From the NCBI GenBank assembly GCA_021741195.1, contig JAIOYL010000017.1, positions 1 through 32,762 on the forward strand: 32,762 bases of DNA. Direction: 5' to 3'. Of the stretch, positions 14,829 through 30,874 are shown piece after piece. Both the position numbers and the translations under genes were made by a program. Position 1 is the stretch's first letter. The number at the start of each line of letters is the position of its first letter. The notes beneath the pieces were generated by a model. That model was not told the origin of the DNA, did not search any database, and saw nothing but the letters and a program-made list of their open reading frames with translations. The stretch is from Sneathiella sp. GTDB taxonomy: Bacteria > Pseudomonadota > Alphaproteobacteria > Sneathiellales > Sneathiellaceae.

Positions 14829-15158
14829 TTACTCGACCCCCGCTTTTTTGAGCTCCCCCGGAAGTTTGCCACCGAGCCAGTAAAAATACATCCGAAAATC
14901 GCTGACGAGGGACCAGTACGGATAGGTAAATGTCGCGGGACGGTTCTTCTCAACAAAGAAATGCGCAATCCAGGCCGGGCCGTATCCACTGACGAGGGCA
15001 ACGAAAATAAAAGCAGGCATTTGCAGAACAATCAGCAGCGCCAGACTTAAAATCGCGAGTGTTGTTCCCAGAAAATGCAGGCGCCGGGCATTTATGTTTG
15101 AATGCTCCCGCAGATAATAGGGCCAGAATTCGGCATAGGTGGTTATTTTGCTCGCCAT
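14829..15158 (-). CDS. Mpo1-like (DUF962) membrane protein
   Basis: A 109-residue protein of the DUF962/Mpo1 family. Yeast Mpo1 is an Fe(II)-dependent dioxygenase that performs alpha-oxidation of 2-hydroxy fatty acids. Typical features are YLREHSNINARRLHFLGT, with its conserved histidines, two central hydrophobic helices, and WIAHFFVEKNRPATFTYPYW. The C-terminal FRMYFYWLGGKL is also family-like. Whether the bacterial protein has the yeast activity is inference. It is transcribed away from the LiuR-type regulator gene, with a perfect palindrome between them, which would place it in a fatty acid regulon. Confidence 0.88.
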   Translation of the reverse strand: MASKITTYAEFWPYYLREHSNINARRLHFLGTTLAILSLALLIVLQMPAFIFVALVSGYGPAWIAHFFVEKNRPATFTYPYWSLVSDFRMYFYWLGGKLPGELKKAGVE

Positions 15159-15242: not shown

Positions 15243-15266
15243 GTTGACGTTTACGTAAACGTCAAC
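15243..15266. promoter_or_regulatory. LiuR-type operator, perfect 24-bp palindrome
   Basis: A perfect palindrome around the core GACGTTTACGTAAACGTC, flanked by GTT and AAC. The MerR-family LiuR regulators of branched-chain and fatty acid catabolism bind ACGT-containing palindromes of this kind. It lies directly upstream of a LiuR-type gene and between the -35 and -10 elements of that gene's promoter, as expected for autoregulation. A 21/22 match to its inner 22 bases occurs at 30774-30795. Confidence 0.85.
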
Positions 15267-15272
15267 TATATT
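15244..15272 (+). promoter_or_regulatory. Sigma70 promoter of the LiuR-type regulator gene
   Basis: TTGACG (15244-15249), a 17-base spacer and TATATT (15267-15272) form a near-consensus promoter. The -35 hexamer and the whole spacer are the palindrome itself, the arrangement in which MerR-family proteins act. Confidence 0.7.
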
Positions 15273-15300
15273 GGCCGCAGGAACAGGGATTGGGTATGAT

Positions 15301-15741
15301 ATGAATGCCAATGCAAAAATAAACATGGATGACAGGGCCAGCTTTTCCATTACCGAACTCGCTGAGGAATTCGGTGTGACCTCCCGCACGATCCGCTTTT
15401 ATGAGGACAAGGGGCTGATAAATCCCGCTCGTGAAGGCACCACCCGTATTTATTCGCGTAAAGACCGTGGGCGGCTCAAAATTATCCTGCGCGGACGCCG
15501 GCTGGGGTTTAGCCTGCAGGACATCAAGAAGATGCTCGATATGTATTCTCCAAAAGGGGAAGCCACCGAACAGCTCACGTTTACGCTACAGAAATGCCAG
15601 GAACAACTGGCAAAGCTCGTTGTGCAACGCGAAGATATCGATGAGGCCATTGCGGAACTTGAGGATGGGATTGCCCAGTTGAAGTCGCATCTGGCATCGG
15701 GCGGGAAGCCTGAAAAAGGTTGCAGTAAGACGATTGCGTGA
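15301..15741 (+). CDS. liuR: MerR family transcriptional regulator, LiuR type
   Basis: A 146-residue DNA-binding regulator. The N-terminal winged-helix motif FSITELAEEFGVTSRTIRFY is followed by EDKGLINPAREGTTRIYSRK and ILRGRRLGFSLQDIKKML, which is the LiuR subgroup pattern. A long dimerisation helix follows, and a short tail contains a single Cys (KGCSKTIA) rather than a metal-binding cluster. LiuR regulators repress leucine/isovalerate and fatty acid catabolic genes. ATG 15301 is the first in-frame ATG after the promoter; AGGGA lies 11 bases upstream, and a later ATG (15325) lacks a site. A palindrome overlaps its promoter, and a near copy lies upstream of the SDR and SCP2 genes at 30.8 kb. 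The next gene downstream starts the beta-oxidation operon. Confidence 0.85.
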   Translation: MNANAKINMDDRASFSITELAEEFGVTSRTIRFYEDKGLINPAREGTTRIYSRKDRGRLKIILRGRRLGFSLQDIKKMLDMYSPKGEATEQLTFTLQKCQEQLAKLVVQREDIDEAIAELEDGIAQLKSHLASGGKPEKGCSKTIA

Positions 15742-27277: not shown

Positions 27278-28630
27278 TCACTTTTTCGGAAAATGGGTTT
27301 CAATGAAGGCGGTTGTCGCTGATCCGTCCGTGAAAGCCTCGTGCGCGAGGCAGCGTATCAGAAATTTCCGGTTTGTCGTCAGCCCTTCATCAATTGTCTG
27401 TTCAAGACCTTTCAAAATATTCGTCCTTGCGGTTTCGCGAGTGTCACCATGGCCGATGATCTTGGCAATCATCGCATCGTAGAAGGGCGTGACTTCATAA
27501 CCATCGGCGAGGCCGTGATCTGTACGAATACCGTCGCCGCTCGCCGTTTGCCATCTCGAAAGAGTGCCGACCCGGGGCAAAAACCCCTTGTCCGGATCTT
27601 CCGCATATAGCCGCGCCTCGATGGCATGGCCGGTGAGGGAAATCTCTTCCTGTGTCAACGGCAACGGCTCATTCGCAGCGACGCGGAGCTGCCATTCCAC
27701 GAGATCAAGCCCGGTGACACACTCCGTCACGGGATGCTCGACCTGCAGGCGGGTGTTCATTTCAAGAAAATAGAAATTCTTGTCGATATCCAGCAGGAAT
27801 TCAAATGTTCCGGCGCCAGAATAGTTGTTGGCTTTCGTCGCGGCGACAGCTGTGGCCCCCATTTTTTCGCGCAACTCCGGCGTGACTGCGGGCGAGGGTG
27901 CCTCTTCGATCACTTTCTGGTGGCGCCGCTGGATGGAGCAATCGCGCTCGAACATATGCACGGCTGCACCGTGATTATCGCCGAAGACCTGAATTTCGAT
28001 ATGCCGTGGATTGAGGATCGCCTTCTCCAGAATAAGCTCGTCCGAGCCAAAGGACCTCTCCGCCTCCGAGCGGGCTGCTTTAAGTGCTTTTTGCATCTTT
28101 TCCGGTTTCTCGACGAGGCGCATGCCGCGCCCGCCGCCGCCTGCTGCGGCCTTGACCATAACCGGGAAGCCGATTTTTTCGGCCGCGTCGATAAAAGCCT
28201 CATCCGACTGGTCCAGCCCTTCATACCCCGGAATGCAGGGCACACCAGTCTCGATCATATAGCGTTTCGCTGCCGCCTTGTTGCCCATGAGAGCGATGGT
28301 ACTGGCATCCGGGCCAATAAAGGTGAGCCCGGCCTTTTCACAGGCCCTTGCGAATTCCGCATTTTCCGATAGGAACCCGTATCCCGGATGGATTGCCTCT
28401 GCGCCGGATTGCCGGGCAGCCTCAATAATCTTGTCGATCGCGAGATAGCTTTCAGACGCAGGGGCCGGACCGATTAGAATGGCTTCATCCGCCGCCTTCC
28501 GATGCGGCGCCTCCGCGTCCGCCTCTGAATAGACCGCGACTGTTTTTATGCCCATTCGTTTTGCGGTAGCCATGATCCGGCAGGCAATCTCGCCGCGATT
28601 GGCGATCAGGATTTTACTGAAAATCGACAT
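27278..28630 (-). CDS. Biotin carboxylase subunit without BCCP domain
   Basis: Carboxylates biotin with ATP and bicarbonate as the first half-reaction of an acyl-CoA carboxylase. The 450 residues cover the complete ATP-grasp biotin carboxylase: FSKILIANRGEIACRIM at the start, HPGYGFLSENAEFARACEKA, the glycine-rich KAAAGGGGRGMRLV, and EMNTRLQVEHPVTE with the catalytic Glu and Arg. It stops right after the BC C-terminal domain (FIETHFPKK). Propionyl-, methylcrotonyl- or geranyl-CoA carboxylase alpha subunits would continue for about 200 residues to a biotinyl Lys; none is encoded downstream. It is therefore AccC-like in size but sits in a catabolic operon. No carboxyltransferase is in the window. 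Confidence 0.92.
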   Translation of the reverse strand: MSIFSKILIANRGEIACRIMATAKRMGIKTVAVYSEADAEAPHRKAADEAILIGPAPASESYLAIDKIIEAARQSGAEAIHPGYGFLSENAEFARACEKAGLTFIGPDASTIALMGNKAAAKRYMIETGVPCIPGYEGLDQSDEAFIDAAEKIGFPVMVKAAAGGGGRGMRLVEKPEKMQKALKAARSEAERSFGSDELILEKAILNPRHIEIQVFGDNHGAAVHMFERDCSIQRRHQKVIEEAPSPAVTPELREKMGATAVAATKANNYSGAGTFEFLLDIDKNFYFLEMNTRLQVEHPVTECVTGLDLVEWQLRVAANEPLPLTQEEISLTGHAIEARLYAEDPDKGFLPRVGTLSRWQTASGDGIRTDHGLADGYEVTPFYDAMIAKIIGHGDTRETARTNILKGLEQTIDEGLTTNRKFLIRCLAHEAFTDGSATTAFIETHFPKK

Positions 28631-28644
28631 ATAACGGGTATCCT

Positions 28645-29805
28645 TTAGCCGCGACGTTGTTTGGGGAGCGTATCCATATATTTGCAGATGATACCGAGCA
28701 TCACTTCGTCAGCGCCGCCGCCAATGGAGGAAAGCCGACCATCCCGATAGAGACGGCTGATCGGGGTTTCGTTCATGAACCCCATCCCGCCATAATACTG
28801 CAGGCAGGCATCGGCAACTTCACGGGTAAGACGTCCAACTTTAAGCTTCGCCATGGAGGCGAACATGGTCACGTCATCGCCTGCCACATAATCGCCGACC
28901 GCGCGATAGGTGAGGGAGCGAAGGAGCTCAAGCTCGGTCTTGAGTTCGGCAAGGCGGAAATGGATCACCTGGTTTTCAAGAAGCGGCCTGCCGAAGGCTT
29001 CGCGGGTACGGGTATAGTCGATGGTGTCATTGATCGCTTTCTCCAGCGGATAAAGCCCTGCTCCGGCGGCCCAGAGCCGCTCCTCCTGGAACTGCTGCAT
29101 CTGGTAGGTAAAGCCCTTGCCTTCCTCGCCGATGATATTTTTTTTCGGCACCCGGACGTCCTCAAAGAAAAGTTGCGCGGTATCGGAGGCGCGCATGCCA
29201 AGCTTGTCGAGTTTGCGGGCGAGAGTGATCCCGGGACTATCCATGGGTACGATGACGAGGGATTTACTGGCATGGATCGGGCCATCGCTGGTATTGACCA
29301 GCATGCACATGAAATCGGCCTGGGTGCCATTGGTGATCCACATTTTCTGGCCGTTGATGATATAGTCATCGCCGTCAGAGCGGGCATGGCTTTTAATCCC
29401 GGCGACATCGGAACCGGCTACCGGTTCTGAAACACCGATGCAGGCGACATAGTCGCCCGAGATTGCGGGCTTCAGGAAATTTTCCTTTACATAATCGGAG
29501 CCGAAGCGCGCAAGTGCCGGCGTCGCCATATCCGTCTGTACGCCGATCGCCATGGGAACGGCGCCGCAATTGATGCGGCCCAGCGTTTCCGAAACCGCAA
29601 GACTATAGGAATAATCAAGCCCCATGCCGCCATATTCTTCGGGCTTGCAGACACCGAGGAAACCCTGGCGCCCAAGCTTCTTGAACAATTCATGGGCGGG
29701 AAACATGCCTTCCGCCTCCCAGGCATCGACATTCGGGTTGATCTCTTGATCGATGAATTTGCTGAGGGAGCGCATGAGCTCCTTATGTTCGGGCCCGTAG
29801 ATCAT
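28645..29805 (-). CDS. Acyl-CoA dehydrogenase, AtuD (citronellyl-CoA dehydrogenase)-like
   Basis: A 386-residue FAD acyl-CoA dehydrogenase. GVSEPVAGSDVAGIKSHARS is the FAD loop, NGQKMWITNGTQADFMC the core, and YYGGMGFMNETP with SIGGGADEVMLGIICKYM the C-terminus; these stretches recall AtuD of the acyclic terpene pathway. The Glu in QFQEERLWAAGA is the likely catalytic base, because the MCAD position is Gly. It overlaps the SDR gene by four bases (ATGA) and is 14 bases from the biotin carboxylase. The Atu resemblance is from memory of the family, so substrate (terpenoid versus branched or ordinary fatty acid) is open. Confidence 0.9.
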   Translation of the reverse strand: MIYGPEHKELMRSLSKFIDQEINPNVDAWEAEGMFPAHELFKKLGRQGFLGVCKPEEYGGMGLDYSYSLAVSETLGRINCGAVPMAIGVQTDMATPALARFGSDYVKENFLKPAISGDYVACIGVSEPVAGSDVAGIKSHARSDGDDYIINGQKMWITNGTQADFMCMLVNTSDGPIHASKSLVIVPMDSPGITLARKLDKLGMRASDTAQLFFEDVRVPKKNIIGEEGKGFTYQMQQFQEERLWAAGAGLYPLEKAINDTIDYTRTREAFGRPLLENQVIHFRLAELKTELELLRSLTYRAVGDYVAGDDVTMFASMAKLKVGRLTREVADACLQYYGGMGFMNETPISRLYRDGRLSSIGGGADEVMLGIICKYMDTLPKQRRG

Positions 29806-30677
29806 TCCTCATCCTCCTGCAAAAACTTCGGTATTTCCGCGAGATGGAAACCGTTGAATGCCTTGTTATTCCTGTGATCCGGCATATCCCAGTTCATGCG
29901 GATATTAGGCGCCCCGCCATCGACGCGCAGGCAACTGCCCGTGATGAAGGCTGACGCTTCGGAGAGTAGAAAGACAATGCCCGCGGAGACTTCCGATTCG
30001 GTTCCCATTCGTTTGACCGGGTGAGAGGCGATGCGGGCCTTGACCCGCGCCTTCCACCAGTCAGGATAGGTATTCATCCCGGAGGAGACGATCATGCCGG
30101 GCGCAATGGCATTGACGCGCACGCCAGCTGACGCCCATTCAAGCGCGGCCGTCTCGGTGAGGCTCAGCATGCCCTTGCGGGCCGCGCCGGAATGCGCCAT
30201 TCCCGGCATTGAATTCCACATATCGGCGATCATATTGACGATCGGCCCGCCGCCGTTCTCCTTCATCCACTGGGTATAACATTCCCTCGCAAAGAGAAAG
30301 CCGCCGGTCAGATTGGTCGCGATAACGGCATTCCAGCCTTTGAGTGTTATCTCTTCCAGAGGGGCCGGAAACTGTCCGCCTGCATTATTCACCAGCCCGT
30401 GGATTGCGCCCTGTTGCTTGATAATTTCGGCAACAGTATTTTTTACCGCGTCTTCATCCCGAATGTCGCAGGAATGAATGGTGGCCATTCCGCCTGCTGC
30501 GGCAATTTCGCTCGCTACGGTCTCCAGCTTTTCCAGGTTCCGGCCGACGAGGGCGACTTTCGCGCCAAGCGAGATCAGCTCATGCGCCGTGCAGCGGCCA
30601 ATGCCACTGCCCCCTCCCGTCACCACAATGGATTGTCCGTCAAACAATCCGGGCCGGAAGATTGATCGGTAATTCAT
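29802..30677 (-). CDS. SDR family oxidoreductase, PECR-like
   Basis: A 291-residue short-chain dehydrogenase/reductase. TGGGSGIG (residues 20-27) binds NAD(P), and VNNAGG is the second motif. Where most SDRs have YxxxK, this has HSGAARKGM, with no Tyr; the same HSGAAR pattern occurs in peroxisomal trans-2-enoyl-CoA reductase (PECR) relatives, so the substrate is probably an enoyl- or hydroxyacyl-CoA. The C-terminus is extended past the usual VDGG. ATG 30677 has GGAGA eight bases upstream. It is the first gene of the leftward operon, transcribed from the LiuR-type operator region at 30.8 kb. Confidence 0.9.
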   Translation of the reverse strand: MNYRSIFRPGLFDGQSIVVTGGGSGIGRCTAHELISLGAKVALVGRNLEKLETVASEIAAAGGMATIHSCDIRDEDAVKNTVAEIIKQQGAIHGLVNNAGGQFPAPLEEITLKGWNAVIATNLTGGFLFARECYTQWMKENGGGPIVNMIADMWNSMPGMAHSGAARKGMLSLTETAALEWASAGVRVNAIAPGMIVSSGMNTYPDWWKARVKARIASHPVKRMGTESEVSAGIVFLLSEASAFITGSCLRVDGGAPNIRMNWDMPDHRNNKAFNGFHLAEIPKFLQEDEE

Positions 30678-30765
30678 AAATTGGTCTCCCACGTATTTTA
30701 TTATTCTTATCGCGGTGTCCGGCGCGGCGAGTTTATTGTTCGTGCCCCGGATCAGTATTTGACAG

Positions 30766-30795
30766 ATTAAAACTTGACGTTTACGTTAACGTCAA
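30766..30795 (-). promoter_or_regulatory. Promoter of the SDR operon, within the dyad
   Basis: On the minus strand TTGACG (30795-30790), an 18-base spacer and TTTAAT (30771-30766). It is the mirror image of the rightward promoter. Confidence 0.6.
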
Positions 30796-30803
30796 GTTTT
30801 AAT
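30774..30803 (+). promoter_or_regulatory. Promoter of the SCP2 gene, within the dyad
   Basis: TTGACG (30774-30779), an 18-base spacer and TTTAAT (30798-30803) lie 71 bases upstream of the start codon. It overlaps the leftward promoter almost completely, so both polymerases would compete. Confidence 0.6.
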
Positions 30804-30874
30804 CTGGAGCTCCGTTTCGGATCTTCATCTGAATTTATAGACGGTTTTGGCTCAATCCTGAAAGGAAAAGAAAG

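Follow-up and report, generated by a model that had tools for sequence, protein, structure and literature searches.

What purpose, if any, is served by a nearly perfect palindrome in the gap between two divergently transcribed genes? The question arises at a locus of Sneathiella sp. (GCA_021741195.1, a draft assembly of 220 contigs), in a stretch of 32,762 nucleotides of contig JAIOYL010000017.1 that we analysed as a whole and call the window. A sequence-only reading of the window had described the palindrome as two exactly mirrored divergent promoters crossing over one LiuR-type operator, through which a single bound regulator would affect both flanking operons equally. The palindrome and its neighbours are:

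30763 to 30806, no strand: near-perfect palindrome of 44 bp with a single mismatched pair, T30782/T30787
30875 to 31177, plus strand: gene for an SCP2 sterol-carrier domain protein of 100 aa (Pfam PF02036)
29802 to 30677, minus strand: gene for an SDR-family oxidoreductase, its start (ATG 30677) chosen by conservation in place of the GTG 30692 of the open reading frame listing
28645 to 29805, minus strand: acyl-CoA dehydrogenase gene, next downstream of the SDR gene
27278 to 28630, minus strand: gene for a biotin carboxylase subunit, after the acyl-CoA dehydrogenase gene

The 44-bp dyad (CAGATTAAAACTTGACGTTTACGTTAACGTCAAGTTTTAATCTG), which sits between the divergent SCP2 and SDR genes, is genuine and beyond chance: 42 of its 44 positions equal its own reverse complement (21 of 22 pairs) and the outer 19 bp of both arms are perfect, whereas the best gapless match of 22-bp arms in eight shuffles of the window reached 14 to 16 of 22. 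TTGACG at 30774-30779 is followed after 18 bases by TTTAAT at 30798-30803 on the plus strand, and TTGACG at 30795-30790 is followed after 18 bases by TTTAAT at 30771-30766 on the minus strand, so that the dyad and the sequence-level mirror symmetry claimed for it are both borne out. Its improbability mostly splits into a recurrent 22-bp operator core and outer arms of 11 bp, and the arms are the unusual part. The core has a copy and a putative regulator elsewhere in the window:

30774 to 30795, no strand: predicted MerR-family (LiuR-like) operator of 22 bp, TTGACGTTTACGTTAACGTCAA, conserved at SCP2/SDR loci in Sneathiella and other alphaproteobacterial families
15244 to 15265, no strand: second operator copy, perfectly symmetric, within the promoter of merR (TTGACG-N17-TATATT, -10 at 15267-15272)
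15301 to 15741, plus strand: gene for a MerR-family regulator (PF13411), the likely operator binder; thiolase and hydroxyacyl-CoA/acyl-CoA dehydrogenase genes come next

With up to three mismatches allowed, the core occurs four times in its own genome: at the SCP2/SDR gap, at the merR promoter, at a ferritin-like gene (C40) and in the gap between MBL-fold and acyl-CoA dehydrogenase genes (C142). A reversed-pattern control gave zero matches in that genome. Copies are present in all 25 Sneathiella genomes searched, the sites having been gathered by similarity to the core from genomes that are partly redundant. In the genus, the operator stands upstream of merR at 21 loci, as it does here. The merR product is a MerR-family wHTH protein with PF13411, PF09278 and PF00376 above their cut-offs, and it is the likely binder because the other two of the genome's three MerR_1 proteins, which we set aside, adjoin an IHF-like gene in one case and a DnaJ-like/FtsH pair in the other. 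The inner 22 bp is thus predicted to act as the operator of a LiuR-like MerR regulator, and the recurrence of the core at the merR promoter and at SCP2/SDR loci supports the operator type that the sequence-only reading had proposed. The label LiuR-like draws on the protein family, the type of regulon and an operator motif that we take to resemble that of LiuR. Since both ends of the operator read TTGACG, nearly all sites show mirrored TTGACG hexamers; these are unremarkable, and we dropped them as a sign of design. The center of the operator differs between its two main settings: it is asymmetric at 26 of 27 SCP2 loci and at none of the 21 merR sites (p 1e-12 in a Fisher test, uncorrected for kinship and so exaggerating independence, since the compared sequences are related).

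Several features were observed around other copies of the operator. A small membrane-type ORF (14829-15158, minus strand, starting MASKITTYAEFWPYYLREH) is divergent from the merR ORF (15271-15741, plus strand), so that the merR operator too lies between divergent genes; a similar ORF adjoins merR at L223. At six merR loci of the other Sneathiella clade (L061, L064, L065, L070, L076 and L106), the merR operator is preceded at a distance of about 6-18 bp by an operator-like piece, cgtttacgtaaa, which suggests a tandem site. In f174 genomes (L253, L254 and L257), the core is a one-base variant, TTTACGCAAACG, flanked symmetrically by A/T runs of five (AAAAA / TTTTT). Genus-wide, at about 20 loci (L003:1565-2674 and orthologues), the operator stands 34-44 bp before the start of a gene for a 369-aa ferritin-like protein that matches, below cut-off, both PF11266 (fatty aldehyde decarbonylase) and PF11583 (AurF), a putative and uncharacterised member of the regulon.

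Which promoters accompany the operator was judged from the intergenic SCP2/SDR regions of 27 loci, in Sneathiella and other families. The elements of the layout that they have in common read as follows in the window:

30759 to 30764, plus strand: -35-like TTGACA of a rightward SCP2 promoter, with TTGAC in this register at 26 of 27 SCP2 loci
30782 to 30787, plus strand: TACGTT, the -10-like hexamer of the SCP2 promoter, lying within the operator, at 26 of 27 SCP2 loci and 0 of 21 merR sites
30790 to 30795, minus strand: -35-like TTGACG of a leftward SDR promoter, at the right end of the operator
30766 to 30771, minus strand: -10-like TTTAAT of the SDR promoter (N18), found also in G014 (L013)

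Toward SCP2, TTGAC(A/T)-N17/18-TACGTT is found in 26 of the 27 loci, and the window's version, with a 17-base spacer, is intact. TACGTT is supplied by the operator's central asymmetry and matches TATAAT at only three of six positions. Toward SDR, TTGACG-N17/18-TAnnnT with the operator in its spacer scores at least 8 in 17 of the 27 loci, on an approximate E. coli sigma70 matrix that may not fit Sneathiella. For this promoter the window and G014 have N18-TTTAAT, and most members of the second Sneathiella clade have N17-TACCAT. Conservation is lower in clade 1, to which the window belongs, and the leftward -10 is weak there in L006 and L008-L011. Two f93 genomes (L188 and L191) have lost the SCP2-distal end of the operator and retained TTGAC-N17-TACGTT, and most other f93 genera keep the staggered arrangement. 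Read across these sequences, the conserved layout appears to be one operator with staggered, not mirrored, divergent promoters, which would make the operator a switch between two fat-metabolism operons. Within clade 1, the SCP2 leader (about 30830-30874, TTTATAGACxGTTTTGG...CTGAAAGGAAAAGA) is also strongly conserved, apparently beyond what a Shine-Dalgarno sequence requires.

This layout agrees at the sequence level with two overlapping divergent promoters, based on TTGACG and TTGACA, that share an operator, and their overlap makes the mutual exclusion of polymerases foreseen by the sequence-only reading a likely consequence. Equal control does not follow: the operator overlies the SCP2 -10 and fills the spacer of the SDR promoter, whose -10 lies outside it, so that a bound regulator would act unequally on the two. 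Promoters activated by MerR-family proteins typically have spacers of 19-20 bp (PMC9909328), and the operator-spanning spacers at the merR, SDR and MBL sites are 17-18 bp. We therefore reject classical MerR activation and predict repression, unlike the action of MerR and SoxR.

If the core is ordinary, the outer arms are what must be explained, and here the window departs from its relatives:

30763 to 30773, no strand: left outer arm CAGATTAAAAC, ancestral-like, sharing 10 of 11 positions with the left arm of G014 and 9 of 11 with that of G016
30796 to 30806, no strand: right outer arm GTTTTAATCTG, which complements the left arm exactly, differs from that of relatives and is presumably a template-switch copy
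30798 to 30803, plus strand: mirrored -10-like TTTAAT, N18 from the TTGACG at 30774-30779, a possible second SCP2 promoter that is perfect only in this genome

All 11 outer-arm positions are symmetric in the window, against a mean of 3.2 and a maximum of 7 at 78 other Sneathiella sites, where the per-position match rate of 0.29 gives P ~1e-6 per site for 11 of 11. No other Sneathiella locus has symmetric outer arms, and the core and its central asymmetry are retained there; perfect mirroring thus appears to be a recent, lineage-specific addition to a conserved operator. The window's right arm is identical to the right arms of relatives at only 3-6 of 11 positions. As the left arm resembles those of relatives and the right arm does not, we infer that the left arm was copied onto the right. 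In this one lineage the derived arm complements the ancestral-like arm exactly and in register, the pattern expected of quasipalindrome template-switching, which most likely made the right arm; a single genome of the window's species was compared, and its sequence fits one template switch or several point changes. The -10 copied from the SDR side may have no effect, may give SCP2 an accessory promoter or may mark a step toward the state of genus g176 described below. An accessory role is conceivable because rightward promoters built on the operator's TTGACG (N16-N19) score at least 8 at 7 of 11 loci in the window's clade, at varying spacing.

Extension of the palindrome recurs elsewhere. Among 221 distinct operator sites from Proteobacteria, with runs counted as symmetric bases beyond the core, five lineages have runs of at least 7 (0.05 expected), three have runs of at least 8 (0.015 expected) and two have full 11-bp runs (0.0004 expected). 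In a 191-site set, runs of at least 8 occur at six sites in register and at none in shifted registers. A cross-site control, related sites included, found such runs in 0.14% of pairs, or about 0.3 expected sites, and so places the background of arm symmetry above the independent-base estimate. The five lineages are the window, G103 (L144), genus g176, and the merR sites of G091 (L223) and G661 (L302), from which it would seem that the extension arose several times at this operator. Four species of g176 (G394, G410, G412 and G317), a genus of another family, have the extended palindrome at this same SCP2/SDR locus. They agree in every base of the arms, AAGCTACC/GGTAGCTT, and vary in the bases immediately outside. 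These species have TTGACG-N18-TAGCTT in both directions and lack the staggered SCP2 promoter.

Could the mirrored pair then be the working promoters of both operons, with symmetry selected so that one regulator controls them alike? The g176 species, in which the mirrored promoters are conserved within varying flanks and the staggered one is gone, speak for this reading. Four of the five extended lineages, including L223, L302 and the window, have divergent genes, and on the approximate E. coli matrix both mirrored promoters of the window score 10.9, compared with 10.1 for the staggered SCP2 promoter. Against it, the outer arms are asymmetric in every other Sneathiella, and TTGACA-N17-TACGTT toward SCP2 is still intact in the window, as it is across nearly all the loci compared. 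In addition, the perfect 44-bp palindrome at L144 lies between merR and a thioesterase-like/acyl-CoA dehydrogenase pair in tandem orientation, which leaves its mirrored half with no obvious target gene. We consider it unlikely that the mirrored pair works in this way at this locus. As a conserved design, the mirrored pair fails in Sneathiella and stands only in the four g176 species, where the staggered promoter was lost. The sequence-only reading had itself named a conserved core with unconserved outer arms as the finding that would count against it; this is what the genus displays, and g176 keeps its mirrored arms.

That the extended arms serve not promoters but the DNA or RNA structure itself, as a cruciform, a hairpin or a wider set of protein contacts, is very improbable. 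It would account for extended symmetry in five lineages, one of them in a tandem setting, but arm sequences vary among the lineages and 78 other sites do without them. Transcripts from the predicted starts at 30794 or 30810, inside or beyond the palindrome, would contain at most one arm, and an RNA hairpin or terminator formed by the dyad was discarded for this reason. Pure coincidence or an assembly artefact is highly unlikely: the object comes from a single genome in a 220-contig draft and palindromes are prone to mis-assembly, but its chance is about 1e-6 per site, its 44 bp are shorter than an ordinary read, and independent extended palindromes exist in unrelated genomes.

The account that we favor, and consider probable, is one of staggered divergent promoters on a single LiuR-like MerR operator, with outer arms that are derived. 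Starting from the observed layout, conservation, lineage restriction and recurrence, it adds binding, repression, a ligand, promoter use and a mutational mechanism as predictions. A LiuR-like MerR regulator would occupy the one operator serving both overlapping promoters. Leftward transcription of the SDR/acyl-CoA dehydrogenase operon would depend on TTGACG-N18-TTTAAT, whose spacer is taken up by the operator; rightward transcription of SCP2 would depend on TTGACA-N17-TACGTT, whose -10 and start the operator covers. The bound regulator would repress both operons by occlusion until released by an acyl-CoA-type signal. During replication, quasipalindrome template-switching would have copied the SDR-side arm to the SCP2 side, completing the 44-bp palindrome and laying a mirrored TTGACG-N18-TTTAAT over the old SCP2 promoter. 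The sequence-only reading, which our analysis supports in part, saw a real and improbable object but mistook a recent embellishment for design.

More tentatively, and with less than even confidence, we suggest a broader idea: that perfectly palindromic MerR/LiuR operators seed repeated template switches, each copying a -10 across the operator so that a single mutation yields a mirror-image divergent promoter, with g176 representing a takeover and the window an intermediate that has both. If so, a new mirrored promoter can displace an old one, as in the replacement of the staggered SCP2 promoter in g176, and the Sneathiella/g176 series would offer candidates for the stages before, during and after such a change at one orthologous locus. 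The value of the comparison is twofold. It sets what is ordinary about the site, a MerR operator shared by divergent promoters in the manner of soxS/soxR, apart from what is unusual, the perfect symmetry of the arms. It also suggests a way, open to testing, in which palindromic operators may gain or swap promoters through one-step copying of a -10 by template-switching.

Known systems resemble parts of this arrangement. Our literature searches found nothing direct on mirrored promoters at MerR sites, or on template-switching that creates promoters or duplicates them across an operator. Quasipalindrome template-switching in E. coli perfects imperfect inverted repeats in one event (PMC7202029), as we propose for the window's arms; those mutations, in contrast, were studied in reporters and hotspots. 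In the prokaryotic bidirectional promoters of Warman and Grainger, both directions use one symmetric -10, and the distance between starts is typically 10, 18 or 23 bp (PMC12825309). There, as here, symmetry admits polymerase in two mutually exclusive orientations, but the mirrored pair in the window shares a spacer and operator, and its predicted starts lie about 50 bp apart. LiuR is described as a MerR-family repressor (PMC3223726), and its regulon in Proteobacteria governs acyl-CoA catabolism (PMC5343134, PMC3223726). The likeness extends to a palindromic operator, a copy of which here precedes the regulator gene itself, and the difference lies in the targets found here, which are fatty-acid/SCP2/SDR genes. 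The mer operator-promoter of Tn501/Tn21 (merT/merR; PMC11049809) likewise has divergent, partly overlapping promoters and a MerR operator between -35 and -10, and it differs from the Sneathiella site in its 19-bp spacer, metal activation and asymmetric arms. The closest known case is E. coli soxS/soxR, where the MerR-family protein SoxR binds an operator common to overlapping divergent promoters and activates soxS across a 19-bp spacer (PMC12825309). There the operator occupies the spacer of one promoter and covers the -10 and start of the other, which is the conserved staggered layout seen here; in Sneathiella, however, the spacers of 17-18 bp predict repression, and the promoters have the operator in common rather than a -10 element.
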